Shown: positions 5,737 to 36,082 of the stretch, one piece after another
How the letters are laid out: each line of letters opens with the position of its first letter
Position numbering within the stretch: position 1 is the stretch's first letter
Source of the DNA: a virus
IMG/VR virus record: IMGVR_UViG_3300034198_007460
Coordinates: 1-36,329 of that record
Length of the DNA stretch: 36,329 bases
Strand: one strand, 5' to 3'
Position numbers and translations under genes: made by a program
The notes under the pieces: model-generated
Database searches by the model: none
The model's input: the letters and a program-made list of their open reading frames with translations, nothing else
What the model was told of the DNA's origin: nothing

Positions 5737-6627
5737 ATGGCAGGTATTAGGATTGAGTGGGGGCAGTTTGGGCATTTTGATTCATTCGATGTAATTCGCT
5801 CTTACACACCACTAGCGAATATTCCTGATGTAAATTTACCTCCACCCATCGCTACAAGTTTGAAAAGCATGTACTACGTTGATACAACAGTCGTTTTGGG
5901 TGAGGTTATTTATTATAAAATAAGAGCTTGGCAAGGGTCATCTTACATTGTAAGCGATGAAATCAAGTTAAAAGATATTTACTTTGATAAAGTTGAGTTA
6001 CTGTTGCTCGCAAACGCATCGAGTTATCCATCAACTAATATCACTGATAAGTCCTCTAGTGCTAGGGCGTTAACCATTAGTGGTGTCACAATTGTCAATA
6101 CCTTGCAAACTATAGATGGTGGGTCTTTTGATTTTAGCAATACTTCAGGGGTCAGATATATACAAGCGGCATCAATCTCACAGCTTAACTTAGATGATTT
6201 TTCAATTGAGTTTTTTTCAAAAATTAACTCGTATACAGACGTATATCATCGTGTATTGCTTTTCGATACGCAAGAAATTGTTAGTATTGGAGCATTCCAT
6301 TTGCAATTAGCAGACAACGGTACGTTCAGGTGGTATATAAACAATGGGTCAATTAAACAAGTAGGTATCAGTTCTTCTGCTGTCGGGACTGCTTTAAAAC
6401 ATCATTGCTTAATGCGAAAAAATGGTATTTTTTACTACTACATCGACGGTGTATTACAATCAACTTATAATCAATATTTAACATACTCTATAACTAAGAA
6501 TAATTTTAGACTTGGCGGTTATACTTCTAATCTAATCGGTTATATATCCTCTCTCAGAATTACACGTGCTGTGCGTTACAATATTGAAGGGTTCACACCA
6601 CCAAGCGAAATGTTCACAAATTACTGA
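5737..6627 (+). CDS. LamG / concanavalin A-like domain tail protein
   Basis: 296 residues, preceded by AAGGGTG. Residues 1-80 look like a small beta domain (fibronectin-like: YYVDTTVVLGEVIYYKIRAW). Residues about 85-296 match a LamG/ConA-like lectin fold: a start with VELLLLANASS, SFDFSNTSGVRYI, DDFSIEFFSKI, HHCLMRKNGIFYYYIDGVL, FRLGGYTS and a final YISSLRITRAVRYN. Such domains bind glycans, and in phages they are found in fibres and virion-surface proteins. It is followed after 10 bases by a giant repeat protein, so both probably belong to the host-contact part of the tail. The sequence is clearly more AT-rich than the genes from about 10300 on. Confidence 0.72.
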   Translation: MAGIRIEWGQFGHFDSFDVIRSYTPLANIPDVNLPPPIATSLKSMYYVDTTVVLGEVIYYKIRAWQGSSYIVSDEIKLKDIYFDKVELLLLANASSYPSTNITDKSSSARALTISGVTIVNTLQTIDGGSFDFSNTSGVRYIQAASISQLNLDDFSIEFFSKINSYTDVYHRVLLFDTQEIVSIGAFHLQLADNGTFRWYINNGSIKQVGISSSAVGTALKHHCLMRKNGIFYYYIDGVLQSTYNQYLTYSITKNNFRLGGYTSNLIGYISSLRITRAVRYNIEGFTPPSEMFTNY

Positions 6628-20672: not shown

Positions 20673-20707
20673 ACCTGACATGCTATTAGGAGTGTGTCAT
20701 GTCAGGT
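20673..20707 (+). promoter_or_regulatory. Inverted repeat enclosing the ribosome-binding site of the giant gene
   Basis: ACCTGACATG (20673-20682) pairs perfectly with CATGTCAGGT (20698-20707). The right arm contains the ATG at 20699 and the loop holds the AGGAG at 20688-20692. In RNA the start codon would be in the stem with the Shine-Dalgarno sequence in the loop. As DNA it could be an operator. A translational or transcriptional control site is inferred. Confidence 0.5.
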
Positions 20708-21688
20708 TCTCAAGATAAAAATCCATTCGCTGACCCAAACTACGGTAAAGATTTAAATTCTAATGGGAGTGGTAATCCTTTTTCTGATCCTGATTATGGA
20801 AAGGAAGAAGAAAAAGGTTTTCTTGGCCAAACAAAAGATCATGCAGTCTCCTTTCTTGGCAAGGGTGCGGTAGGTGTAGGTGAGGTAGCAGTCGGTTTAA
20901 GCGACATGATGTCCGATGGTGCTACAGGTAAAATACTTTCCGAAAAACTTGGGTATGATCCAAAAGCAGCCAAAAATGTAATGACAGGCTGGCAGTCTGA
21001 ACAATACCAACAACAATTAAAAGATTCTGCAAATATTGGCAATCGAAAAATTGAGGAAGGAGACGACTTCGCAACAAAGGTTGGTAAAAAATTCGACAAT
21101 GCGGTTGATATAACAAAAAATGCCATCAGCAACCCATCACTTATCACAAATACCGTTGCTGAATCTCTCCCTTCAATGTTTTTAGGTGGTGCATTAGGTC
21201 GTGCTTCTGGTATAGCCAAACCCGTTGTAGCTGGTGCAGTTGGTGAGGGTGCAGTTATGGCAGGTAGCCAAGCTGAACAAATTCGCCAAGAAACTGTAGA
21301 TGGACGCTTAACCGCAGATCAATCTTTAGCAAGTGTTGGTACGGGCGCATTGGGTGGCTTGTTTGGTTATGCTGGTGGTCGTCTTGCTCAGAAAATGGGC
21401 TTATCAGATGTTGATACAGCCATGCAAACAGGGCGCTTAACCACGCAACAAGTGGGTGAAGAAATTGCCAAGACACCGATGAGAGCAATTCCAACTGCTG
21501 TGATCAAAGGTGCTATTTCGGAAGGCTTTTTAGAAGAATTACCTCAATCCGTTTCAGAGCAAATTTTACAGAACTTGGCATTAGATAAGCCTTGGCATGA
21601 TGGTGTTGAAAATGCAGCAGTCATGGGTACTTTGGCTGGTATGGCAATGGGCGGTACAGTCAGTGGTGTGGGTAAAACTGGTGATTGG
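20699..21688 (+). other. Giant protein: ejection-like N-terminal region
   Basis: Residues 1-330. Two copies of NPFxDPxYGK stand at residues 8 and 26. From about 150 there are Gly/Ala-rich hydrophobic helices (SMFLGGALGRASG, VGTGALGGLFGYAGGRLA), and near 275-325 a segment with SEGFLEELPQSVSEQI and a final AAVMGTLAGMAMGG. This pattern recurs in large internal virion proteins of podoviruses that insert into or cross the host envelope. It suggests the whole chain is carried in the particle. Confidence 0.5.
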
Positions 21689-24600
21689 TGGAATAGTCGA
21701 TCTGACACAGGACCTCAAGATAACCAACAGCAATCAGGATCACCTAATCTACCATCAGCACCATCACAATTTGGCTCAAATCCAGATAGTGCTTTGACTG
21801 GCGAATATATTCCACGTGGAAATGCATCACAGGGCGACAATCAAGGTCGCACAGCTTTTGTTTATGATCAGCCATCAATGGATGCTGATAATTTACTAAA
21901 CAATAATGGCTTTGATTATGGCGGTGCAGCAAATGGTAATCCAACCAGTCCAGATACGCCACCAGCACCGAACGGCAACTATTTTGACGATGATTATGGC
22001 AGTGAAGCGGCCTTTGATGATTTATTGAATGCTGTACCACCAGCCAACCAAACACCTTCACAGCAAATGGGGATTAATCCCAATGATGGCCCTATATCAT
22101 CCGCAGCAGCTTTGGCAGTGGATAGTGGCGCATCTCCGATAGCTCAATTGGGGTACACACCAGAGCAACAGACGCAAGAGCAAAGTAATACACCAATCAG
22201 TGATGCTGTGCCGTCAAACTATCAATCATTATTAGGAAGTCAGAACGATGGGCAGCCTTTTAATGCAAACCTTGAAGATGCAACAGCACAGCAAGGGAAT
22301 ACACAAGCTGACATGGGTGGAGCAATTGAAACAGATACAGCGCAAACAACATCAGCGCAAACTGTTCAACCAATCTTAGGCCAAGATGGTAAAAACAAAT
22401 GGTTTGGCACACAGGAAAAAGCGCAAGCATTCATTGATAAGAAAGATTTAGGCAATGATTATCAGGTAGTTCAAGATGGTAAGCGTTTTGAGATTCAGCC
22501 TAAAGCCAAATCTCCAGTTCAAGATGACGCATATTTTCAAAGTCAATTAGATCAACTCAATAAACAACGCGCACAGTTTGAATCGTCTGGCGATTACGCA
22601 AATGCCGAAAAAGTTTACGCTGAAATGCAAACAGTGGCGCGTGAATGGCAAACCAATTCAAGCACAGATACGCCTACAGCCAAGCGAGCTGAACCATCTA
22701 AGGGTGCATCTGATAATGCTTGGGCGGATTTTTACAGAAAAAATCGCAACATGATAAGTGAAGAACTTTTCACGGGTGGTCATCAAGATCGTAATGCGCT
22801 TGAAGAAGCTACTCCTGAGATTCAATCACGTCATGCTCACGGCATGGCTAAGGCAACTCCTGCTGCTGCGGTTCGTGATCTGAAAGATATTTTAGAAAAT
22901 GGCATAGATCAGAATCGCGGACAAGGGCGTTTGTTCACAGCACCTCTAAGTCAGGGAAAATTGACAGCCGAACAGCGTAGCGCAATGTCAGCATCAGGCA
23001 CATCGTCAGGTAGTGCTTATAGTGATGGTGCTTTTACTTTGATCGCCAAAGAGGGTGTTGGGGATATTCGGTCTGTGTCTGAAATTGATGCAGTCATGGT
23101 AAACAGTGCAGTACCTCAAGAAGTTGTGAATGGTTTACGCCAAGACTTTCCAAACATGAAGTTTGGGTATGCAAAAGAATTGCCTAGCTTGTTATCAGGT
23201 GGTAAACAGTCAAACAATGCACAGGCTCAAGTTGCTGAACTTGAACAACAGCTTGCGAATGAAAAAAGTGTAGCGAAAAAGGCACAGATCCGTAAACAGA
23301 TTGCAGAGTTGCAAAACGGTTTGACAGAACAGGCGCAAAGCACTGTAAGTTTGAATCAACCACAAAACACTACTGTAGAAAACCTGAGTGGCGAATTTAA
23401 AAAAATAGAAGAATCTACTAACCCAATTAAGAAAATGGCTTTAAAAGGCATATCTTCTCAGGTTCTTAGTGGTAATCGCTCAGAAGTTGAGGATGTTATT
23501 AAATCGCTTGGAATTACAGAAGATGAGATTGCTTCAATTCAACCTGATCCGAAAGATAATTTCTTGGATACTGATTTTAAATACCTGCCAACAGCAGACA
23601 AGGTTGGAGTTGGTAGCGATAAAGAGCGTGCTATTTTCCTACCAAAAACAAAAGGTAAAAAAGGACAGTGGCAAAAAATTGAAGATGATTATGTCTTAGC
23701 TATGGATGGTGGTCGTTTTGTTGATCTTCCGAAAATGACCAGAGAGCAGGCAATCCAGTTGTCTAATCGTGATGGTGAAAACAAATACTATGATGTTGTG
23801 CCGCGTGCCTATGCTGATCATCTTGGATACAAAGCAGTGGCAGATAATAAAAATCTTACAACTGAATCTCAACCACAAAACACTGCGTCTGAGCATCCTG
23901 TAAATAAATGGCAAGCTGAAATGCAAGAAGCCTTATCCAAGGCTGATCCTGAGCATCCACTTTTTAAAAAACTACAAGCTAGTGCTAAGAACGGATTACG
24001 CTCTGTTTCAGATCGAGCGGTGGCATTACGTCAGGCACGTGAGATTGAGAAGAAAGCGGAAGCACAGGAACAAAAATATCTACCTGAAAAGCCAAAAGCA
24101 AAAGTCGAACCTTCTAAAAACACGTTAGTATCCGATGATCGTGCAGCGGAATTACGCGCTCGTCTAAAAGCCAAGCTATCACAACTGAATAGTGGTATTG
24201 ACCCTGAAATCATGGCTATTGGTGCGGAACTTGCGGTTTACCATATTGAACGTGGTGCACGTAAGTTTGCAGCATTAGCTAAAAATATTGCGAATGATCT
24301 TGATGTGAGTGTCGAAAAGATCCGTCCATACCTGCGTAGTTGGTATAACGGTGCACGTGACATGATGGAGGATATGGGTGCGGATATTCAGGGCATGGAT
24401 AGTGCAGAAACCGTTCGTGCAGAATTAGCAAAACTCGATAATCCACAACAACAGTCAAATACAGTACAGAGCAAAACAGAAACGGTTGTTACACCTGCAG
24501 GTCGTGAATTTGAGGTGCGCCACAAAGTCGTTGAAGCAAGCGACTTAATCACATCAAATCTGGACAGCGGTGCAATTAATGCAGAATACCCACAAGCCTT

Positions 24601-27600
24601 ACAACCACGTGACCGCACCACTTTAAAATCCGTTACTCAGATCAATGATATTGCCAACAAGCTTAACCCTAAATTATTGGGTGATAGTGCAAGCTCTACC
24701 AATGGTGCGCCTATCGTGTCGTCTGACAATGAAGTTGAAAGCGGTAATGGTCGTACACTGGCGATTCGCAAAGCCTACCAAACAGGCAAAGCAGACGCAT
24801 ACAAAGCATGGTTAGCTGAACAGGGCTATGATGTGGCCAACATGCAGCAACCGGTATTGGTCCGTGAACGTATCACGCCAATGAATATGGCCGAGCGTGT
24901 AGCCTACACAACAGAATCGAATGAGCGTGACACACTGGATATGAGTCCAAGTGAACAAGCTATGTCGGATGCGCCAAAGGTCATGGATATTTTGCACCTG
25001 GTACAAGGTGGCAGTTTTAACAACACGGCCAATCGTGATTTTGTGAATGCCTTTTTAACTGGTGTAGCATCTAAAAACGAGCGCGGTACCATGCTCGATA
25101 AAGATGGGGTATCACTCACTCAGGACGGATACCGCCGTATTGAATCAGCCTTGCTTGCAGCTGCTTTTAATGATGCTCAAATTATTAGTCAGGTGATTGA
25201 ATCTAAAGACAGCGATATTAAGGCGATTGGTAATGCCTTGATTGAAGCGGCACCACAATGGGCACAAGTCCGTAAAGGTGTGCAAGATGGCATTTTGGTT
25301 GAAGGCGTGAACGTCGAAGCCAATTTGGTTGAAGCGGTCCATCTGGTACGTAAGGCACGTCAGCAAAACTTATCTTTATCTGAAATGTTGAATCAGGACG
25401 ATATATTTGACGGCAGCATTGACCAGGTTACGAAAGACTTTATTAGTATTTTTTATAGTGGTGATAAACTCAACAAAGCACGAAGCAGCCAGAAAGTTGC
25501 AGACGCATTAAAGTCGTATGCGCAATTGGCTATGACTGCAAAAGCATCTCCAAATCTTTTCGGTGATGCGCCTTTAAGCAATGAACAAATTTTAGGACAA
25601 GTACATGAAAAACTCAGACAAAGTGAAGCCGAAAAGCAGCAAGACTTCTTCTCTAGCCAAGGAGCTAATGACACAAACCCTGGAAAATCTAGCCAAGTCG
25701 GACAAGGACCTGAAACTAGCAAGCCAGATGCAGCAGCGTCGCAATCCGCAACAGTAACACGTACACAGGTTGAGCGTCCGAAGAACGACACAACACTTGT
25801 TCAAGATTGGGGTGTTCAATATGTAGATGGTTGGGCAACCAATTCAGAACATGCAGGTAAAATTTATACTGATAATGGCTTAAAAGATGGCGTAAAAGCA
25901 GCATTCCTGAAAGATTCTAAAAAGTATCTTGAAGCAGTGCAAAAGAATCTGGAAAGCATTGGTTATGAACTTCACCTAGACAAGAAAGGCAAGCCGCAAA
26001 AAGTTAGCGTGAATGAATCAGGCGTAGCTGGTAGTGGTGAAGTATCGCTTTATATCCGTGAGCCGGTGACTGGTGTTAATGTTTGGATGAAAATTGGCGA
26101 TGGATTCCCAGGTTCTCATCCACAACGTATCGGCATTTTGTATCGTGCCACGATGAAGGAAAGCGATAAACAGGCCAGTGGTTTTGGTATTGAGAACTCA
26201 GGCAACCAGTATGCCGGTGCTCAGACTTCTGCCTTTGAACTGGCGCAAATGATTGATGATATGGTCACTGCGCTTGTGAAGCGTAACCAGAACAAGGAAA
26301 ACAGCAATGAACAATCTGCAAGCAGCCCACTTAATCCGCAAGGAACGTCAGATGTACGAGGAGGACGAGGACGTGCTCCACAATCGAATGATCCACAAGC
26401 GAATAATACAAATGTGGAAACAGGAGTATCCGCAGGAAGTGGCACGACTGGAACAACGCAATCTACTGGACGATCTAGCGTTCGTGGTGCAAGAGAGAAT
26501 GTGGCGAACGATGCAGGAGTATCAGGACGGGGGAATGAATCCAGCAGACGCGCGGGAGCAAGCGGAACTACAACATTATCAGTTGATCAGCCCACAAGAT
26601 TAGAGTCACCAGCAGCAGTAGCCAATACTGCGACTGATTTCTACATGGCTGACCCAGATATTATTTTCGGTGGTAGCCAGAAACAGCGTTTTGACAAGAA
26701 TAAAAGAGCACTCGAGCTATTAGAAGAACTCAACGCAGAAGGCCGTCAAGCAACAGCAGAAGAACAAGTGGTGTTAGCAAGTTACACTGGTTGGGGTTCG
26801 TTTGGCCAAGACCTATTCCAAGGTACATGGAACACGCCTGTTTTTAAAGATGGTTGGAAAGATGAAAACCTTTGGCTGCGTGAAAAATTAGGTAAAGAGT
26901 CTTGGGAATCAGCAAAGGATTCCGTTCTGAATGCTTTCTTCACTGATCCATACACCGTCCAAGCAATGTGGTCTATGGCTGAAAAGATGGGCTTTATTGG
27001 TGGGCGTGTTCTTGAACCGGCGGTAGGTACTGGTAACTTTATCAGTTTAATGCCGATGCACATTAAACAGCGTAGCCAGGTGACAGCGATTGATCTGGAC
27101 ATTACCACCGCTGCGATTGCAAAACAGTTATTCCCTGAAAGCAATGTGCAGAACATGCCATACCAGAAGTCTAAAACACCAGACAACTTTTATGACTTGG
27201 TGATTTCTAACGTGCCTTTCTCGAATGATGTGAAGATTGCAGACCGTCGTTATAACCAATTCAATCCAAACTTACACGATTACTACTTCCTAAAAATGCT
27301 GGACCAGGTGCGTCCTGGCGGTATCGTGATGGCGATTACTTCATCCGGTACGATGGACAAACAATCCGAAGTGATTCGTCGTGAGATGGCCAAGCAATCC
27401 GAACTGATTACATCGATCCGTTTACCTGCAGGTGCGTTTAAAGATTTTGCCGGCACTAATGTTGTAACCGATATTATTGTGCTGCGTAAACGTACTGAAC
27501 CTTTGACCATGACACCGGATGCAGATTGGATCGGATTATCCGAAGTTAAAACGTCAACTAAGCCAGTGAAGGTCAATAGCTTTTACGCCAATAACCTACG

Positions 27601-30600
27601 TAATGTTTTAGGGACCATTGATTATAAAGGCGGTGATCCACGTTTTGCTGGCATGACGGTACTTAGTAATGGTGAAGCCTGGCTGAAAAAGGAACTTAGC
27701 CAATTATCTGATCTGGTGAGTGAAAACACATTATTGCCACGTCATAACCATGATTACCTGACTTATTATGCAAACAAGGCTGGTGAGCGCACCAACACAT
27801 TAACCATGAGTAATGGTGAATTGATGTTTGTCTATGGCGACCAAATGGTTAAAGCTACTGATATTCATGAATACAAAATCAAGGATGCCAAGAAAACCGC
27901 ACAACGTCAGAAATCAATTGAAGACCTGGTAGCGATTCGTAAAGCCTACACAGATTTGACCGATGCAGAACGCATCGAACAGGACAATGTAGAGCAGCTG
28001 CGCAAGACCTTGAATAAACTTTACCAGGCATATACCAAAGAACATGGTCCATTGGCTGATTCATTTGGTTTGCAATACTTCAAGAAGATTGAAGATGCGT
28101 ATTACTACAGTCTTGCAGCACTTGAAAACAACGGTAAACCGGCTGAGATTTTAAAGCGAAGTGTTGTTCGTGGAGCCGCTGCTCTTGATAACCCAACAGT
28201 ATCGGATGCCTTTGTGGTGGAACGGAATAAATCCGCTGCGCCTAGTCTGGCCAACATTGCAAAAATGGCTCAGGTATCAGAGGATCAGGCACGTGCTGAA
28301 CTACTAGAAAAGGGTGCGGTATATGTATTGCCGAATGGCGATATTATGCCAAGCGATATGTACCTATCTGGAAATGTTCGCCAAAAATTAGAAGAAGCAC
28401 AAAACGCAGTTGCAGAAGGCAATACTGACCTGCAGCGTAACGTCGATGCACTCAAAGAGATCATTCCAGAGGACATTCCATACTTCAACATTGAAGCCAA
28501 AATGGGTGCAACCTGGGTGCCATTGTCGGATTATGAAAAATATATTTCACACATGCTCGGTATGACCGATAGCAACGGCATTACTGTGACATTCCCATCA
28601 GGTAAGTGGAAAGTCAAACTTGATCCTATTGCAGCACGTCGTACCGAAGCCACGACCAACTATGGCTCTAAATATAAGTCATTCCAAACGGTGGTATCTG
28701 CTGCACTGTCTAACCAGAACATTACTGTGAAGTATAAAAATTCTGATGGTTCTGAAAGTGTAGATGTGCAAGCAACGGAAGAAGTGAACGAAAAAATTTC
28801 CAAGATTAAGGAGGATTTTGCAACCTGGTTATGGTCCGATCCTGAACGCCGTGTGCAATTAGAGAAGGAATATAACCATGCATTCAATGCTTGGGCGACA
28901 CCTAAATATGATGGTTCGTTCATGTCGATGCAGGGTATGGCGTTAAGCCTGGGTAATGGTCCGTTTAACTTGCGTCAGCACCAACAGAATGCCATCTGGC
29001 GAGCGATTGTCAATCGTCGTTCCATTAATGCGCATGAAGTGGGTACCGGTAAAACCTTTACCATGGGTGGTATTGCACTTGAATCACGTCGCTATGGTAT
29101 TGCTAAAAAGCCATTGATCCTAGCCCACAATGCCAACAGCGCAGCCGTAGCCAAAGAAATTCAGATGATGTATCCATCGGCGCGTGTACTGTTTATCAGT
29201 GAATTAGGTAAAGCAGTCCGTCAGATCCGTATGCGTCAAATTGCTAATGATGATTGGGATGTAGTGGTGATGCCACACTCGATGATTGATAAGCTCACTT
29301 TGTCTGAAGAAACCTTGATGGCTATGGCTGCTGATGATATTGCAGCACTAGAAGCAGAGATTGAAGAAGCACTGGCCGAAGAAGGTGGCGCAACCCTGGA
29401 TGAAGTCCTGGCAATGAACAGCGACGACGTGAATAAAAAAATGGGCTTTAAAAACCCAACTGCCAAGCAGCTTGCTAAACAACGTCTGAAACTTTTAGAG
29501 GACATTCAAAAGCAAGCCATGGATTCAAGTAAAGCCGATGCGGTGAACTTTGAAGAACTTGGTGTAGATATGATCATGGTTGATGAAGTGCATGAGTTTA
29601 AAAAACCAAGCATTGCTACACGTATGAACATGAAGGGCTTAAACACCAGTAGCAATAAACGCTCGGTGAACTTACAGCTGCTCACACGTTATGTACGTCG
29701 CATGAACAATGGCGGCAATGTGCATACCTTTACCGGTACACCGATCACCAATACCTTGACTGAGATCTACCATCAAATGCGTTATGTGATGGAAGAAGAA
29801 ATGCAAAAACTCAATGTCGCGGCCTGGGATGGTTGGTTTGGTAGCTTTGCAACAGACATTACCGATATTGAACTTTCTGCTACTGGTGAATACCAATTGG
29901 TGACACGTTTAGCCGGATTCGTAAACGTGCCTGAACTGCGCAAAATGATCGGGCAGTTTATGGATATTGTTTTTGCCAACGACATGCCAGAAATGCAGCC
30001 ACGTCGAACAAATACCGGCAAAGTATTATCAGATGAAGGTTTAAGTGAAGCAGAAAAAGCCGAGTTGCTAAATGGCCGTACCGAAGGTGCCAAAGATCGT
30101 CCGTATAAAAAAGTGATTAACGTCACCACGGAAATGTCACCGAAACAAGAGAAAGCCCTAGAGCGTATTCAAGGACTAGCTAAGGAATGGGAACAAGCTA
30201 CCGGTAAACAAAAACGTGAATGGATGCGTGACGGTGATCCACGTGCACCGTTATCCATCAGTACCGCAGCCAAGAAAGCCAGTTATGACGCACGTATTGG
30301 TGATCCTGAATACATTGGCCAGGAAGGTAAGACCGAAGATTTTGAAATGTCTAAGGCTTCCCAGGTCGTGAAAAACGTCATGGAGGTGTACCACTCTCAT
30401 CCGTTGGCCAGTCAGGTGATTTTTGCTGATACCGGTTATAACACGACAACGGAACGCAGTACCGGCAAGAAAGACGCGAAAGGCAAGACCATTCGTGAAC
30501 GTGTCAAAGTCTTTTCACCGATCCGTGACATTGTAGAACGCCTGGTACAACAAGGCATTCCACGTGAACAGATTGCCATTGTCGATGGCTCTGTGAAAGC

Positions 30601-33600
30601 CGAAGCACGTAAGGCCATTGCCGATAAAGTCAATAGCGGTGAAATCAGGGTGGTGATTGGCCTGACACAAACGCTTGGTGTAGGTGTGAACATGCAGCGT
30701 AATTTACGTGCCATGCACCACCTGGACGCGCCATGGATGCCGGGTGAACTTGAACAGCGTAATGGTCGCGGTTTACGCCAGGGCAACCAATGGAACACGG
30801 TACTTGAGTATCGTTACATCACCGATAAGTTAGACGGTAAATCATGGCAAGTCTTGGCCATTAAGGACCGTTTTATCAATGCCTTTATGAAAGCCGATGG
30901 TAATGTTCGTTCGATTGAAGGTGATGCTGCTGCGGATAACGGTGAAGATAATGCAGGGGATATTATGTCCTCATTCTCAGAAGCTTCTGGCGACCCACGT
31001 GTATTGCAACGGATCAAGATGAAAGAAAAACTTGAGAAGCTGCAACGAAAAGAGCGTTTGCATACACAGGGTATAGCGGATATGAAGCGTACCATTGGCA
31101 ACACGCAACGTCGTATTGCTCGTTTTGATGAGCAAATTGCCGAGTATGAAAACAATGCTGTTTTGGATCGTATTCAAAAACTAATGCAGTCACAGTCTGA
31201 AAACTTCTCCGTAGAGGTGGACGGCAAGAAATACGACAAGCACAAGGAAGCATCGGACGCGATTCAACAATTCATTGCCGACCATGTGCGTACTGGCTCA
31301 TCACGAATCACATTAGGAAAGTATGGCAATGTCACTATGTCGGTTGAATGGGATAGCCTGCAACCACAAGCAACATTATCGATGAAGATTGGGCCGATTG
31401 AATTTAAGGGTAATACCTTACGTGGCATCGAGGGTAAGTTACGTGGTGTTAGCCAAGATATTCAAGCTATTGAAGATGCCAAAGCATCGGCGCAACAGAC
31501 CATTGATAGCCTGTCAAAATCAGTCGAGCAGCCGTTTGGACAATCTGATCAATTGGCACGTACTCAAAAGCAACTTGAAAATATTGAGCAAGACTTGGAA
31601 AGCAACCCGGTAGCACCGCCGATCTGGTTACGCCGTGGTACGCCAATTGATTCAGAAGTGTATTACAAAGGCAAACTGTTTATCGTGTCTGGGCACCGTT
31701 ATACCAATGACGGTTGGTTTGTATCAGCAGATGATGCAAAAGGGACCATTGAGATTCCGTACCTGGAAGCAACCGACAGTGTAGGTATGCCGATTTATGA
31801 GGAAAGAGAATTTGAAGCACCAAATATTAATGACAAAACAAAGGCAGACAATGATGTAAAAAATGAAATTAATGACTATAGCCGTGACAAATTAAAACCT
31901 GATAACGAGCGTAGAGGTACTTCACCGCTGGATACTACCTTTAATGCTTTATCAGTTGTCAGTGCTACTCGACGAGTCCTTTCTGTTCTTCAACATCTCA
32001 AACTGTCCGCTACACAAGATTCGTCGATTAGTGGTCGAATTACTGTTGGAAGTGCTGGAATTAAGGGGGGATTTGATGTTCAAGTTATTTCTAGCTTTGA
32101 TGGACTTCCTACGGAAATACAAAAAGATGCCACATACCAAGATGATAAAGGTAATACCCAAAACTATGATGTTAGTGCTGTTTGGCATAAGGGTACACTC
32201 TATGTAGTTGCTGATCAGGTATATGGAGATAATGAAAAACAGATTACTACATTTGATGCTTATGAGGAAATGTTAGCGCATGAAATCATTGGCCACTTTG
32301 GTGTACAACAGATATTTGGCCAAGAATATAAAACTAAGTTGCAACAACTCTATAATGCTTTAGGTGAGCTTGAAGGTATCCGCAAAATCGCCAGCAAAAA
32401 TGGTGTAAATATGGCACAGTTTGAAAGTGCATATATTGAGCCATATACCCAAGGTGCGAAAGAAGGAATTTATGCTGAATCAGATGTACAACAAGCCTTG
32501 GTTGGAGAATTATTTGCTTTTGTTGCACAAAATGCTAAGTCACGTCCTTTTGTACGTCAAAAGCTAAAAGAAGTTATTGGATATATTCGTCAGTGGTTCC
32601 GTGATCGTGGCTTTGATAAATTCCTTTCACGTTACAATGATGCCGATTTGATGATGTTTTTGTCAGAAGCTCGTAAGGCTGTAGTTGATCGAAGCTATTT
32701 TGGTAAATATAAAAATCAAGAATTTTCATCTAAGAACGATTCTGATACTCCACTTTATAGCCGTCGTACTAAGAGCAATTCAGGCTCTACAGTTCAGCAA
32801 GTAAGGGGTGTATTGATTGATCGCTTTGGTAAAGACACGATCAAGGAGTTAGAGCGTCAGGGTAAACTTGAGATTATTCAAGACTATTCTGTTGAGGGTG
32901 TGGAGGGCTTCTATTACAACGGTAAAGCGGTACTCGTTGCATCGAATCTGACTGCTGAAAGCACAGTGCCAACATTCTTACATGAGTTGGGTGGTCATGC
33001 AGGTTTTCAGAATATGATGACTCAAAAGCAATATAATGAATTGATGAATCAATTTAATAAATTGGTTGATCAGGGCAATCCTGTTGCTATGGCTGCAAAA
33101 TTACTTGCGGAACGTGAACAAGGTTCTGAGCGTCAACATCTAGAGTATTTGCCATATCTATTAACACTCTCATCAACTATGCAACAACGTAATGTAGTAC
33201 AGCGTAATGCACTACAAAAACTTATAAACAATTTAGTGACGTATGTTAAAGCAACGCTATTTGATAATTTTGGAATAAATCTCAACCTCAATCCAAATGA
33301 CATAGTTGCACTTGCTGAGCGAATGATTGAGAAATCCTCATATAATGCTGAAAATGCTACTTCACCTCTGTATAGTCGTCAGTTTTTTGATAATACAATC
33401 AATAACTTAAGTGAAAGTATTAAACATTTATCTGCAAAGTCTATCAAGGATAAAACAGGTTATAAATCTACTGATTGGTTGGGTATTGGCTTATCAGCCT
33501 TAGGTCGTCGACAACTTACTGAAATTTACAGCAAAATTTTACCGCAGTTAAACAAATATAATGAATTAGCTGCTCAAATGGATGCTGATAAGAACGACGC

Positions 33601-36082
33601 TGGTGCTGAAGCTGATAGTATCGTGCGTGAATGGGGAAATTTAAACGATGAAGAAGCTTTAGCAAATGTAATGCATGATTCGACTTTAGCAAAAATTGAC
33701 CCAACCAAACCCTATGTTAGTGGAGATAGTATTTCAAAATATAAGCAATTACGGGATGCCTATAATTCACTATCACCAGAAGCTCAGGCAATGTATTTAA
33801 AAGCGCGTGATGCTTATAAAAAGCACTATGCAGAAGTACATCAAGCAATTAAAGAGCGCATCTTACGTTCTGAATTATCCAATCAGAAAAAAGCGGATTT
33901 ACTTAAACAGATGGATGATAACTTCTTCGGATCTATCAAAGGGGTATATTTCCCATTGGCTCGTTTTGGTAAATATGTAGTGGTGATGCGTAACCAAAAT
34001 GGTGAAGTTGAAAGCGTTAGCCGTGCCGAAACCATGGGAGAAGCACAGGCATTACGTTCTGAACTTATACAGAAATTTCCACACTATAAAGTTAATAAAG
34101 TGAAATTAGATAAGGAATACAACAAATCCAGAGATGCTGTTGGTCGTGGGTTTATGACCAGTCTATTTGCAGAGGTAGATAATTTAGGCCTATCGACTGC
34201 GGAACGAACTGAATTTGAAGATACTCTAAGTCAGCTTTATTTATCTTCTATGCCTGATTTGAGTTGGGCAAAACATGGGATTCACCGTAAGGGTACAGCA
34301 GGGTTTAGCCAAGATGCACGTCGGGCATTTGCACAGAATATGTTTAGTGGTGCTAATTATCTTGCTAAGTTACGCTATGGTGATCAGTTAGCACAGCAGC
34401 TTGATGAGATGCAAAAGTATGCTGATGAACAGTTTGAAGTGGATGAGGATTACGATCAGCGATCTGCTCAAAGTGTCATCACTGAAATGAATAAACGTCA
34501 TGACAACTTAATGAACCCTAAAGGGCATCCTTTATCAAGTGCATTAACCAGCTTGGGCTTTATTTATTACCTGGGGCTATCACCAGCAGCAGCTATGGTC
34601 AACTTATCGCAGACAGCATTGGTGGCTTATCCATTGATGGGTGCTAAATGGGGCTTCGATAAAGCGGCAGATGAATTACTGAAAGCATCGAATGACTTTA
34701 GAAAGGGGGTAGAGTTTCACAAGGTGAAGTGGGAAGGATCAAAAACTGACCTTTACAAAACAATTAGCTCCGATATTTCTAAATTTCTAAATAAAGATGA
34801 AAAACAGGCTTATGAAGATGCTGTGGCGCGTGGCGTGATTGATGTCACTCAGGCACATGATTTAGCAGGAATTGCACAGGGTGAAGATAGTGGTGTGATG
34901 TGGAAGACACGCCCGATTATGCGTGCAGCGAGTGTCATGTTCCATAGTGCTGAAAGATTTAACCGTGAAGTTACTTTTATTGCAGCATATCGTCTAGCGC
35001 GTCAATCAGGTGAAAATCACGATTCAGCATTTGATCAAGCTGTAGATGCGACCTACAAAGGACACTTTGATTACAGTTCTGGCAACCGTCCACGTATCAT
35101 GCAAGGCAACGTTGCCAAGGTTCTTTTACTGTTTAAACAGTTTGGTCAAAACATGCTTTACACATTGGCTCGTCAGACCTATCAGTCCATTAAAGGTGAA
35201 ACGGAAGCTGAACGAAAAGAAGCTCGTAAATCACTTGGGGCTATTTTGGCAATGCACGCAACTTTTGCTGGTGCGCTTGGGTTGCCTATGGTTGGAATGT
35301 TGTTGTCGGTTGCATCTTGGATGGGCGGGGATGACGACGAACCTTGGGATGCGGAAGTGGCACTGCGTAACTATCTTGCTGAAGCATTCAGCCCGACCAT
35401 TTCAAATATACTGATGAAAGGTGCGCCACGCGGTATTGGTGTGGATATTTCTAGTCGTGTTGGTATTAATAATCTTTTATTACCAGACGTACAAGAAGGG
35501 TTAGAAGGTAAAAAATGGTGGGATTCAGCATCAGCAGCAGCTTTGGGGCCTATTGGCGGGATTGGGGCAAATATCGCAAAAGGTGCACAGGAAATTTCAG
35601 AAGGGCATAATCTACGTGGAGTGGAAAGTATGCTGCCAGTGTTTCTTAAAAACTTTGCTAAAACCTATCGCTATGCTGATGAGGGTGTCCAAGACAAAAC
35701 TGGTGTATCTATCATGGATGAAGTTAGTTCAATGGATTTACTTGTCCAAGGTATGGGGTTCTCACCATCTGATGTTCGTACAGCCAGTGAAGGCAAAACA
35801 GCAATTTATCAGCTTAACCGAAAGCTTAATGAGCGTCGTAGTCGTTTAATGGCTTTATGGTCACGAGCGAAAATGATGGATGACCAACAAGAGATGGATG
35901 AAATTTGGGAAGAAATTCAAGGTTTCAATGACAAAAATCCATCACGTCGTATAACTAGAATGAACCTTAATCAAAGTTATCGTAATCGCCAACGTCGTAT
36001 AGATCGTGCGGAAGATGGCATATATTTGTCACGGAATCGTCAAGATGCACGTGAAGCTGGTTACTTTGCTTTTGGTGAATAA
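20699..36082 (+). CDS. 5127-residue polyvalent phage protein (ejection, ParB-like, methyltransferase, helicase, two zincins)
   Basis: One open frame of 15.4 kb with a strong AGGAG site six bases before its ATG. Domains in order: an ejection-like N-terminus with two NPFxDPxYGK repeats and Gly/Ala-rich helices (1-330); Gln/Asn-rich linker; a small module near 568-602; an unnamed domain at about 670-836; a domain with AIGAELAVYHIERGARKFA (1165-1215) common in polyvalent proteins; DdrB-like ParB (1262-1634); an unnamed domain (1703-1860); low-complexity linker (1866-1970); methyltransferase (about 1980-2268); helicase (2753-3416); coiled coil (3440-3485); two zincins (HEIIGH 3861, HELGGH 4095); PLARFG (4419); hydrophobic C-terminus. 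Polyvalent proteins of this kind are packaged and injected with phage DNA to counter host defences (P1 Dar system). The fusion into one chain of about 560 kDa is unusual. Whether it is cleaved is unknown. Confidence 0.85.
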   Translation: MSGSQDKNPFADPNYGKDLNSNGSGNPFSDPDYGKEEEKGFLGQTKDHAVSFLGKGAVGVGEVAVGLSDMMSDGATGKILSEKLGYDPKAAKNVMTGWQSEQYQQQLKDSANIGNRKIEEGDDFATKVGKKFDNAVDITKNAISNPSLITNTVAESLPSMFLGGALGRASGIAKPVVAGAVGEGAVMAGSQAEQIRQETVDGRLTADQSLASVGTGALGGLFGYAGGRLAQKMGLSDVDTAMQTGRLTTQQVGEEIAKTPMRAIPTAVIKGAISEGFLEELPQSVSEQILQNLALDKPWHDGVENAAVMGTLAGMAMGGTVSGVGKTGDWWNSRSDTGPQDNQQQSGSPNLPSAPSQFGSNPDSALTGEYIPRGNASQGDNQGRTAFVYDQPSMDADNLLNNNGFDYGGAANGNPTSPDTPPAPNGNYFDDDYGSEAAFDDLLNAVPPANQTPSQQMGINPNDGPISSAAALAVDSGASPIAQLGYTPEQQTQEQSNTPISDAVPSNYQSLLGSQNDGQPFNANLEDATAQQGNTQADMGGAIETDTAQTTSAQTVQPILGQDGKNKWFGTQEKAQAFIDKKDLGNDYQVVQDGKRFEIQPKAKSPVQDDAYFQSQLDQLNKQRAQFESSGDYANAEKVYAEMQTVAREWQTNSSTDTPTAKRAEPSKGASDNAWADFYRKNRNMISEELFTGGHQDRNALEEATPEIQSRHAHGMAKATPAAAVRDLKDILENGIDQNRGQGRLFTAPLSQGKLTAEQRSAMSASGTSSGSAYSDGAFTLIAKEGVGDIRSVSEIDAVMVNSAVPQEVVNGLRQDFPNMKFGYAKELPSLLSGGKQSNNAQAQVAELEQQLANEKSVAKKAQIRKQIAELQNGLTEQAQSTVSLNQPQNTTVENLSGEFKKIEESTNPIKKMALKGISSQVLSGNRSEVEDVIKSLGITEDEIASIQPDPKDNFLDTDFKYLPTADKVGVGSDKERAIFLPKTKGKKGQWQKIEDDYVLAMDGGRFVDLPKMTREQAIQLSNRDGENKYYDVVPRAYADHLGYKAVADNKNLTTESQPQNTASEHPVNKWQAEMQEALSKADPEHPLFKKLQASAKNGLRSVSDRAVALRQAREIEKKAEAQEQKYLPEKPKAKVEPSKNTLVSDDRAAELRARLKAKLSQLNSGIDPEIMAIGAELAVYHIERGARKFAALAKNIANDLDVSVEKIRPYLRSWYNGARDMMEDMGADIQGMDSAETVRAELAKLDNPQQQSNTVQSKTETVVTPAGREFEVRHKVVEASDLITSNLDSGAINAEYPQALQPRDRTTLKSVTQINDIANKLNPKLLGDSASSTNGAPIVSSDNEVESGNGRTLAIRKAYQTGKADAYKAWLAEQGYDVANMQQPVLVRERITPMNMAERVAYTTESNERDTLDMSPSEQAMSDAPKVMDILHLVQGGSFNNTANRDFVNAFLTGVASKNERGTMLDKDGVSLTQDGYRRIESALLAAAFNDAQIISQVIESKDSDIKAIGNALIEAAPQWAQVRKGVQDGILVEGVNVEANLVEAVHLVRKARQQNLSLSEMLNQDDIFDGSIDQVTKDFISIFYSGDKLNKARSSQKVADALKSYAQLAMTAKASPNLFGDAPLSNEQILGQVHEKLRQSEAEKQQDFFSSQGANDTNPGKSSQVGQGPETSKPDAAASQSATVTRTQVERPKNDTTLVQDWGVQYVDGWATNSEHAGKIYTDNGLKDGVKAAFLKDSKKYLEAVQKNLESIGYELHLDKKGKPQKVSVNESGVAGSGEVSLYIREPVTGVNVWMKIGDGFPGSHPQRIGILYRATMKESDKQASGFGIENSGNQYAGAQTSAFELAQMIDDMVTALVKRNQNKENSNEQSASSPLNPQGTSDVRGGRGRAPQSNDPQANNTNVETGVSAGSGTTGTTQSTGRSSVRGARENVANDAGVSGRGNESSRRAGASGTTTLSVDQPTRLESPAAVANTATDFYMADPDIIFGGSQKQRFDKNKRALELLEELNAEGRQATAEEQVVLASYTGWGSFGQDLFQGTWNTPVFKDGWKDENLWLREKLGKESWESAKDSVLNAFFTDPYTVQAMWSMAEKMGFIGGRVLEPAVGTGNFISLMPMHIKQRSQVTAIDLDITTAAIAKQLFPESNVQNMPYQKSKTPDNFYDLVISNVPFSNDVKIADRRYNQFNPNLHDYYFLKMLDQVRPGGIVMAITSSGTMDKQSEVIRREMAKQSELITSIRLPAGAFKDFAGTNVVTDIIVLRKRTEPLTMTPDADWIGLSEVKTSTKPVKVNSFYANNLRNVLGTIDYKGGDPRFAGMTVLSNGEAWLKKELSQLSDLVSENTLLPRHNHDYLTYYANKAGERTNTLTMSNGELMFVYGDQMVKATDIHEYKIKDAKKTAQRQKSIEDLVAIRKAYTDLTDAERIEQDNVEQLRKTLNKLYQAYTKEHGPLADSFGLQYFKKIEDAYYYSLAALENNGKPAEILKRSVVRGAAALDNPTVSDAFVVERNKSAAPSLANIAKMAQVSEDQARAELLEKGAVYVLPNGDIMPSDMYLSGNVRQKLEEAQNAVAEGNTDLQRNVDALKEIIPEDIPYFNIEAKMGATWVPLSDYEKYISHMLGMTDSNGITVTFPSGKWKVKLDPIAARRTEATTNYGSKYKSFQTVVSAALSNQNITVKYKNSDGSESVDVQATEEVNEKISKIKEDFATWLWSDPERRVQLEKEYNHAFNAWATPKYDGSFMSMQGMALSLGNGPFNLRQHQQNAIWRAIVNRRSINAHEVGTGKTFTMGGIALESRRYGIAKKPLILAHNANSAAVAKEIQMMYPSARVLFISELGKAVRQIRMRQIANDDWDVVVMPHSMIDKLTLSEETLMAMAADDIAALEAEIEEALAEEGGATLDEVLAMNSDDVNKKMGFKNPTAKQLAKQRLKLLEDIQKQAMDSSKADAVNFEELGVDMIMVDEVHEFKKPSIATRMNMKGLNTSSNKRSVNLQLLTRYVRRMNNGGNVHTFTGTPITNTLTEIYHQMRYVMEEEMQKLNVAAWDGWFGSFATDITDIELSATGEYQLVTRLAGFVNVPELRKMIGQFMDIVFANDMPEMQPRRTNTGKVLSDEGLSEAEKAELLNGRTEGAKDRPYKKVINVTTEMSPKQEKALERIQGLAKEWEQATGKQKREWMRDGDPRAPLSISTAAKKASYDARIGDPEYIGQEGKTEDFEMSKASQVVKNVMEVYHSHPLASQVIFADTGYNTTTERSTGKKDAKGKTIRERVKVFSPIRDIVERLVQQGIPREQIAIVDGSVKAEARKAIADKVNSGEIRVVIGLTQTLGVGVNMQRNLRAMHHLDAPWMPGELEQRNGRGLRQGNQWNTVLEYRYITDKLDGKSWQVLAIKDRFINAFMKADGNVRSIEGDAAADNGEDNAGDIMSSFSEASGDPRVLQRIKMKEKLEKLQRKERLHTQGIADMKRTIGNTQRRIARFDEQIAEYENNAVLDRIQKLMQSQSENFSVEVDGKKYDKHKEASDAIQQFIADHVRTGSSRITLGKYGNVTMSVEWDSLQPQATLSMKIGPIEFKGNTLRGIEGKLRGVSQDIQAIEDAKASAQQTIDSLSKSVEQPFGQSDQLARTQKQLENIEQDLESNPVAPPIWLRRGTPIDSEVYYKGKLFIVSGHRYTNDGWFVSADDAKGTIEIPYLEATDSVGMPIYEEREFEAPNINDKTKADNDVKNEINDYSRDKLKPDNERRGTSPLDTTFNALSVVSATRRVLSVLQHLKLSATQDSSISGRITVGSAGIKGGFDVQVISSFDGLPTEIQKDATYQDDKGNTQNYDVSAVWHKGTLYVVADQVYGDNEKQITTFDAYEEMLAHEIIGHFGVQQIFGQEYKTKLQQLYNALGELEGIRKIASKNGVNMAQFESAYIEPYTQGAKEGIYAESDVQQALVGELFAFVAQNAKSRPFVRQKLKEVIGYIRQWFRDRGFDKFLSRYNDADLMMFLSEARKAVVDRSYFGKYKNQEFSSKNDSDTPLYSRRTKSNSGSTVQQVRGVLIDRFGKDTIKELERQGKLEIIQDYSVEGVEGFYYNGKAVLVASNLTAESTVPTFLHELGGHAGFQNMMTQKQYNELMNQFNKLVDQGNPVAMAAKLLAEREQGSERQHLEYLPYLLTLSSTMQQRNVVQRNALQKLINNLVTYVKATLFDNFGINLNLNPNDIVALAERMIEKSSYNAENATSPLYSRQFFDNTINNLSESIKHLSAKSIKDKTGYKSTDWLGIGLSALGRRQLTEIYSKILPQLNKYNELAAQMDADKNDAGAEADSIVREWGNLNDEEALANVMHDSTLAKIDPTKPYVSGDSISKYKQLRDAYNSLSPEAQAMYLKARDAYKKHYAEVHQAIKERILRSELSNQKKADLLKQMDDNFFGSIKGVYFPLARFGKYVVVMRNQNGEVESVSRAETMGEAQALRSELIQKFPHYKVNKVKLDKEYNKSRDAVGRGFMTSLFAEVDNLGLSTAERTEFEDTLSQLYLSSMPDLSWAKHGIHRKGTAGFSQDARRAFAQNMFSGANYLAKLRYGDQLAQQLDEMQKYADEQFEVDEDYDQRSAQSVITEMNKRHDNLMNPKGHPLSSALTSLGFIYYLGLSPAAAMVNLSQTALVAYPLMGAKWGFDKAADELLKASNDFRKGVEFHKVKWEGSKTDLYKTISSDISKFLNKDEKQAYEDAVARGVIDVTQAHDLAGIAQGEDSGVMWKTRPIMRAASVMFHSAERFNREVTFIAAYRLARQSGENHDSAFDQAVDATYKGHFDYSSGNRPRIMQGNVAKVLLLFKQFGQNMLYTLARQTYQSIKGETEAERKEARKSLGAILAMHATFAGALGLPMVGMLLSVASWMGGDDDEPWDAEVALRNYLAEAFSPTISNILMKGAPRGIGVDISSRVGINNLLLPDVQEGLEGKKWWDSASAAALGPIGGIGANIAKGAQEISEGHNLRGVESMLPVFLKNFAKTYRYADEGVQDKTGVSIMDEVSSMDLLVQGMGFSPSDVRTASEGKTAIYQLNRKLNERRSRLMALWSRAKMMDDQQEMDEIWEEIQGFNDKNPSRRITRMNLNQSYRNRQRRIDRAEDGIYLSRNRQDAREAGYFAFGE
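24482..25600 (+). other. Giant protein: DdrB-like ParB-superfamily domain
   Basis: Residues about 1262-1634. The signature is FEVRHKVVEASDLITSN, then YPQALQPRDRTTLKSV, LNPKLLGDS, and VESGNGRTLAIRKAY with the ParB-type GNGR at 1349-1352. The family includes the DdrB protein of phage P1's anti-restriction set, and ParB folds bind DNA and nucleotides. The helical part up to about 1634 (SEQAMSDAPKVMDILHL and following) is typical of the longer phage version. Confidence 0.8.
26307..26603 (+). CDS. Nested small gene in the +1 frame inside the giant gene
   Basis: 98 residues from ATG 26307 to TAG 26601-26603, with AAGGA at 26294-26298, eight bases before the ATG. The product looks like a real helical protein, rich in Glu, Arg and Gln with regular hydrophobic spacing: MNNLQAAHLIRKERQMYEED, IIQMWKQEYPQEVARLE, NLLDDLAFVVQERMWRTMQ, GMNPADAREQAELQHYQL. 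In the main frame the same bases encode a Ser/Gly/Asn/Thr-rich linker (residues 1870-1968), the composition expected if that frame is the passenger. The site lies between the DdrB-like and methyltransferase-helicase parts, which are usually separate genes in related elements. Function unknown; I infer it is a retained gene overprinted when its neighbours fused. Confidence 0.6.
   Translation: MNNLQAAHLIRKERQMYEEDEDVLHNRMIHKRIIQMWKQEYPQEVARLEQRNLLDDLAFVVQERMWRTMQEYQDGGMNPADAREQAELQHYQLISPQD
26639..27502 (+). other. Giant protein: DNA N6-adenine methyltransferase-like domain
   Basis: Residues about 1981-2268. Motif I, the SAM-binding loop, reads LEPAVGTGNF at 2105-2114. The catalytic motif reads SNVPF at 2170-2174 where active enzymes usually have NPPY/F. 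The prelude YTGWGSFGQDLF and the later HDYYFLKMLDQVRPGGIV are typical of DarB-type methylase-helicase proteins. SAM binding looks intact; the Pro-to-Val change may weaken or abolish catalysis, although NVPF occurs in this subfamily. Confidence 0.82.
28955..30946 (+). other. Giant protein: SF2/SNF2-type helicase domain (DarB-like)
   Basis: Residues about 2753-3416. Walker A HEVGTGKT is at 2779-2786, the DEVH box at 2962-2965, motif III TGTP at 3012-3015, a motif V-like IGLTQTLGVGVNMQ, and motif VI QRNGRGLRQG at 3353-3362 with both arginine fingers. All ATPase motifs are intact, so the domain is probably an active DNA translocase. A charged coiled coil follows at about 3440-3485. Combined with the upstream methyltransferase fold, this is the DarB layout, which protects incoming phage DNA from type I restriction. 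Confidence 0.88.
31886..32668 (+). other. Giant protein: first zincin metallopeptidase domain
   Basis: Residues about 3730-3990, with the zinc-binding HEIIGH at 3861-3866 in EEMLAHEIIGHFGVQQ. Upstream strands (VSAVWHKGTLYVVADQVYG) and the downstream ALVGELFAFVAQNA helix, whose Glu may be the third ligand, match the metallopeptidases found in polyvalent proteins. Substrates are unknown; candidates are host defence proteins or the giant chain itself. Confidence 0.75.
32765..33364 (+). other. Giant protein: second zincin-like domain, bounded by PLYSR motifs
   Basis: Residues 4023-4222, with HELGGH at 4095-4100 in FLHELGGHAGFQNM. VEGFYYNGKAVLVASNLTA precedes it in the same relative place as in the first zincin. 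A Glu-rich helix (AKLLAEREQGSERQHLEYLPYLLTL in three pieces) follows and could supply the third ligand. PLYSR stands just before (4018-4022) and just after (4223-4227) the module. Confidence 0.68.
33365..36082 (+). other. Giant protein: PLxRFG and hydrophobic C-terminal region
   Basis: Residues 4223-5127. The region is mostly helical. YFPLARFGKYVV (PLARFG at 4419-4424) is the motif that names PLxRFG phage proteins. Two hydrophobic stretches, at about 4612-4652 (LGFIYYLGLSPAAAMVNLSQ) and 4846-4872 (AILAMHATFAGALGLPMVG), could insert in membranes. This type of C-terminus is found in large polyvalent proteins of tailed phages and may act in packaging or envelope passage. Confidence 0.6.

Follow-up and report, generated by a model that had tools for sequence, protein, structure and literature searches.

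The window, by which we mean the whole stretch of viral DNA analysed here (36,329 nucleotides; IMG/VR record IMGVR_UViG_3300034198_007460, positions 1-36,329), carries a giant gene whose product combines a methyltransferase domain, an SF2/SNF2-type helicase, a large polyvalent protein associated (LPD) domain and a ddrB-ParB domain, and which by this combination belongs with the DarB-like polyvalent proteins (Table 1). Relatives retrieved by tblastn are annotated as DarB-like antirestriction. Lying entirely within its 5127-aa ORF, in the +1 frame relative to the main one, is a far shorter ORF. An earlier note on this DNA had described it as an ATG-started ORF of 98 codons with AAGGA eight bases upstream, and both were found at exactly the positions it gave; the same AAGGA letters precede the nested ATG in two homologous loci (L006 and L011). 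Over the nested ORF the main frame is indeed a linker rich in Ser, Gly, Asn and Thr, and in Arg as well. It is situated between the ddrB-ParB and the methyltransferase domains, and the domain matches agree with the placement of the overprint between a DdrB-like and a methyltransferase-helicase half.

Table 1 Features of the nested ORF and its host gene in the window
Feature	Position	Strand	Remarks
Host gene, 5127-aa DarB-like polyvalent giant protein	20699..36082	+	
ddrB-ParB domain (PF18763) of the giant protein, 5' of the overprint	24497..24871	+	E 2.2e-38
Shine-Dalgarno-like AAGGA	26294..26298	+	ends 8 bases 5' of the ATG
Main-frame low-complexity linker, Ser/Gly/Asn/Thr/Arg-rich, over the nested gene	26306..26605	+	
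Overprinted gene, 98-aa protein predicted to be helical	26307..26603	+	ATG start, TAG stop, +1 frame within the giant gene
Methyltransferase domain of the giant protein, directly 3' of the overprint	27008..27223	+	PF08241, 25.7 bits, cut-off 21.2
SF2/SNF2-type helicase region of the giant protein, ResIII to Helicase_C	28964..30784	+	
LPD39 domain (PF18858, large polyvalent protein associated) of the giant protein	33437..33955	+	E 2.6e-45

For the small protein, AlphaFold predicts a confident fold of five helices (mean pLDDT 85.6), in keeping with the helical product that had been anticipated. The window protein has no significant match in Pfam, PHROGs, NCBIfam, PADLOC or PDB, and its predicted fold has no match in PDB. 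Among viral models the best fold match was Q8W6J4_2 (probability 1.00, 68 columns at 2.2 Å, with an E value of only 0.22), which, going by a protein length of 2185 aa, is probably the second half of orf33 of Sinorhizobium phage PBC5.

The giant gene holds other ORFs as well. At 25605-25757 on the plus strand, a 50-aa ORF in the same +1 frame may be a second overprint: its identity is 74-76% in L006 and in L011 and 55% in L012, where Met1 is kept, and between the window and L011 it too has the inverted codon-position pattern described below for the 98-codon ORF. At 35046-35414 (+), an ATG-started ORF of 122 codons lies within the 3' end of the giant gene.

Length in itself says little about such ORFs. 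When main-frame codons were resampled synonymously and the openness of the +1 frame was scored, that frame stayed open in 3.3% of resamplings for the window, and two other +1 open stretches of its giant gene are longer than the nested ORF, so that length is weak evidence; in G+C-rich relatives the corresponding probability reaches 0.95. We therefore rejected ORF length as proof of a gene, and take conservation among homologues as what shows the gene to be real.

Searched with tblastn, the small protein was found at 56% identity in Pseudomonas phages USP_25 and USP_18, in both cases unannotated and within a giant gene, and iterated searches added homologues in further viral contigs and in Acinetobacter and Sphingobium genomes. 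In each of these window-type homologues the ORF is nested, in +1, in a long main frame. The window-type profile led to a more distant type, with proteins beginning MNLNNW, at the identical place and in the identical frame; it occurs in Erwinia, Klebsiella, Agrobacterium, Ochrobactrum, Vibrio, Pseudomonas (Itty13) and Microcystis phages. One carrier of the nested gene, Agrobacterium phage Atu_ph08, forms a laboratory pair with C58. A search with this type gave 67 loci, with the ORF in +1 in nearly all; the two exceptions to +1 nesting are L067 (PBC5) and L097. The latter (5962-6327) is a degraded remnant, which keeps the small ORF together with a truncated methyltransferase but has lost the giant gene's upstream half. 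A homologous protein thus occupies the same place and frame in more than 100 loci, and it appears to be unannotated in nearly all of the records examined. The search with the product that had been proposed for this ORF found homologues in other phages at the same spot.

With the main-frame methyltransferase domain as the only query, built mostly from overprint-carrying loci, we kept the nearest 80 of 546 relatives, many of them contigs already in the small-gene set; 67 of these 80 matched the small-gene profile at E<0.01, all in +1; eight of the remaining 13 gave weaker matches, again all +1, and five gave none. These five comprise L157, where the sequence reaches only a short way upstream, L194 and L203, which hold a +1 ORF of other sequence at the same spot, and L191 and L193, which have neither the small gene nor a Ser/Gly/Arg-rich linker. 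In Burkholderia phages BcepIL02 and JC1 this spot also holds a +1 ORF, its ATG preceded by AAGGAGGT or AAGGAG. A +1 ORF of unrelated-looking sequence also lies 5' of the methyltransferase in the giant genes of a Dolichospermum phage (L213) and a Helicobacter prophage (L215).

An SD-like motif of at least four bases precedes 95 of 102 distinct homologous overprints (93%; the other seven starts have none); elsewhere in these giant genes, 1380 of 9042 +1-frame ATGs have one (15%). The choice of start was partly SD-guided for some window-type members and fixed by homology for most MNLNNW-type ones. The start codon is ATG in 96 of the 102 and GTG in six. Together with homologue conservation, the enrichment supports the claim that this is a separate gene with its own putative ribosome site.

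Across 23 homologue pairs, which are partly related by phylogeny and so not wholly independent, conservation is in every pair (23/23) higher for the small protein than for the main-frame residues that its bases also encode, and substitutions at main-frame positions 1, 2 and 3 number 786, 512 and 421 in the overlap as compared with 749, 499 and 2339 in the downstream flank. Main-frame position 1 is the third position of the small gene, from which it follows that the small frame dominates the constraint. The inverted codon-position pattern appears at the overprint in all four of the whole giant-gene pairs scanned. Conversely, when the small gene was resampled synonymously, the median share of trials in which the main frame stayed open was 1%, and for the window it was 0 of 400; since the main frame is usually closed in this way, both frames are maintained. 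To judge by these substitution patterns, the second frame is under purifying selection at the protein level, and its amino-acid sequence more strongly so than that of the main frame. The earlier note had named a lack of homologues in other phages, with conservation of synonymous sites in the main frame only, as the outcome that would speak against a gene; the frame-by-frame comparison came out decisively otherwise, with homologues in existence and constraint stronger in the small frame.

That the ORF has no product and is merely kept open by linker composition is therefore scarcely credible: long +1 open stretches are common in these giant genes, at the probabilities given above, but the conservation bias of the 23 pairs, the inverted codon-position pattern, the SD enrichment and the recurrence of a homologous protein in place and frame all stand against it. 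Our main reading, to which we give a probability of roughly 90%, is that 26307-26603 is a functional nested protein-coding gene of a conserved family, kept in both frames and translated from its SD-like start by internal initiation. On the sequence comparisons this is one stretch of DNA long obliged to encode two proteins.

Another way of making use of the small frame would be programmed frameshifting, in which ribosomes slip from the giant frame into the small one and the product of the DdrB half ends in the small domain as a C-terminal tail. In PBC5 (L044/L067) the upstream frame does continue into the small ORF: one base differs from relatives, and by this the small gene is fused in frame to the preceding half of the giant gene. 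The difference, however, concerns just one base of a single old sequence and could be an error. In many homologues (L042, L047, L048 and the window among them) a stop in the small frame lies just 2-12 codons 5' of the small-gene start, and the starts carry SD motifs of their own, so that we consider a frameshift tail very improbable. Under internal initiation, ribosomes would start within the giant-gene mRNA, and the small helical protein would be made alongside the giant injected protein.

Kinship of the family was traced through profiles. Window-type and MNLNNW-type profiles match with a probability of 95.5 (E 1.4e-8), and MNLNNW-type and TnpV-like profiles with a probability of 93.1 (E 3.1e-7), in an alignment that spans the core. 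Against Pfam TnpV (PF14198; curated cut-off 27 bits), the overprinted proteins of L189, L195 and L201 score 44.8, 31.5 and 27.4 bits and so lie above the cut-off, while the window protein gives no match. As window-type and TnpV profiles do not align directly (hhalign probability 0.7, E 0.075), we call the window protein TnpV-related by profile chaining only, and not itself a TnpV. The likeness is to a small helical protein of mobile elements; the difference is that TnpV is a free-standing gene in elements of Clostridia, whereas the window overprint is nested and lacks a direct match. A TnpV family search gave no match in any control genome and carries no information. DUF2924, IPPT and phrog_11806 were dropped as relatives, being sub-threshold and inconsistent, and P1 Ulx, a DarB localisation factor, was rejected as a homologue after showing no significant match to the family profiles. 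A strong match of MNLNNW-type members to phrog_938 ('endolysin') involves its last 102 columns, which are apparently the PBC5 fusion, and we do not infer a lysis function from it.

As to origin, the earlier note had proposed that the small gene is ancestral, sat between a DdrB-like and a methyltransferase-helicase gene, and was trapped when these fused. The trapping is not supported, because the overprint also occurs where the DdrB half is absent. On the Arthrobacter plasmid pA58H1 it lies +1 in the N-terminal region of a DarB-type gene without that half, as an annotated TnpV gene (L205, 4817-5570) inside the upstream stretch over which the helicase-methyltransferase frame is open, and it is present in L181, L197 and L201 with only 294-504 codons of open main frame ahead of the methyltransferase domain. 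The annotated start of the pA58H1 helicase-methyltransferase gene falls after the TnpV gene; the frame is open well upstream of that start, and the annotation is therefore probably too short. From its distribution, the small gene accompanies the methyltransferase-helicase (DarB) half and appears to predate the DdrB fusion.

The other part of the proposal, an ancestral small gene and a younger linker, fares better. If the order were reversed, the linker would be the older frame and the small protein would have been born inside it de novo. Consistent with such a birth, no free-standing window-type homologue was found in 658 sampled genomes, a thin sampling, or in the plasmid collection. Against it, the profile chain reaches TnpV, known as free-standing genes; the linker is the less conserved of the two frames; and the DarB genes of P1, L191 and L193, which have no small gene, have no Ser/Gly/Arg-rich linker either, P1 DarB starting almost at the methyltransferase domain. 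We regard de novo birth as unlikely. With the TnpV relatives and the linker-less DarBs both favouring this direction, we infer that the small gene is probably the older and the linker the younger frame. The N-terminal linker of the DarB gene would then have been extended over a pre-existing small gene, and its richness in Gly, Ser, Arg, Asp and Ala would follow largely from the codons of a helical protein read one base out of step.

What the small protein does can be approached through its company. P1 DarB, carried in the virion, protects incoming DNA (PMC5512222, PMC9024508), and the DarB-like gp69 of the relative JC1 has been detected in virions by mass spectrometry, with 51 unique peptides (PMC9144972). 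Nesting would fix the co-inheritance and co-expression of a small partner with such a protein, and the shared message and nearly constant association, that is nesting and co-occurrence, tentatively suggest, as the best guess and at slightly less than even odds, that the small protein is a partner of the DarB-like protein in its folding, its loading into the head or its action on DNA. The main rival holds that the small protein is independent, a recombination directionality factor, a host-takeover protein or an anti-defence protein that shares the transcript and has no partnership with DarB. For TnpV of Tn4451 a role in excision has been postulated from similarity to lambda Xis (PMC3158075), and on pA58H1 the TnpV gene sits after a recombinase gene; yet the overprint tracks the methyltransferase-helicase half at nearly every locus examined. 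Independence is a serious possibility, if one short of even odds. At its fullest, the partnership reading would have a TnpV-related gene locked in the DarB linker since before the DarB-type genes dispersed among phages and plasmids of Pseudomonadota, Actinomycetota and other hosts, as one of the most widespread nested genes known and with an obligate DarB partner as its product, the linker's sequence being mostly a by-product of what the nested gene encodes; this we offer as a conjecture with not quite an even chance of being right.

Nesting of this kind has precedents. The small lysis gene Rz1 lies wholly within its partner gene Rz, in the +1 frame, in many phages; its protein and function are unrelated to those of the overprint, for which it serves as a working model and not as kin. 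In the Dar system itself, P1 iddB ('internal to ddrB') is annotated as a small gene inside a larger one (PMC10695390), in that case within ddrB and not 5' of the DarB methyltransferase. The kind of arrangement is thus already known. The host gene belongs to the polyvalent proteins and the DarB methylase-helicase dyad of Iyer et al. (2017; PMC5512222), in the main text of which a keyword search found no overlapping gene, and a literature search mostly outside subscription journals found no description of the nested gene. The family, its location and its breadth appear to be new.

For gene annotation, the finding means that gene callers either overlook the nested gene or, as on pA58H1, call it and shorten the giant gene. 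The overprint also offers an unusually well sampled case in which to study the order of origin of two overlapping frames. Polyvalent giant proteins rank with the largest that phages make; they travel in the virion and protect incoming DNA, and the nested gene is a candidate for a missing component of DarB-type antirestriction.
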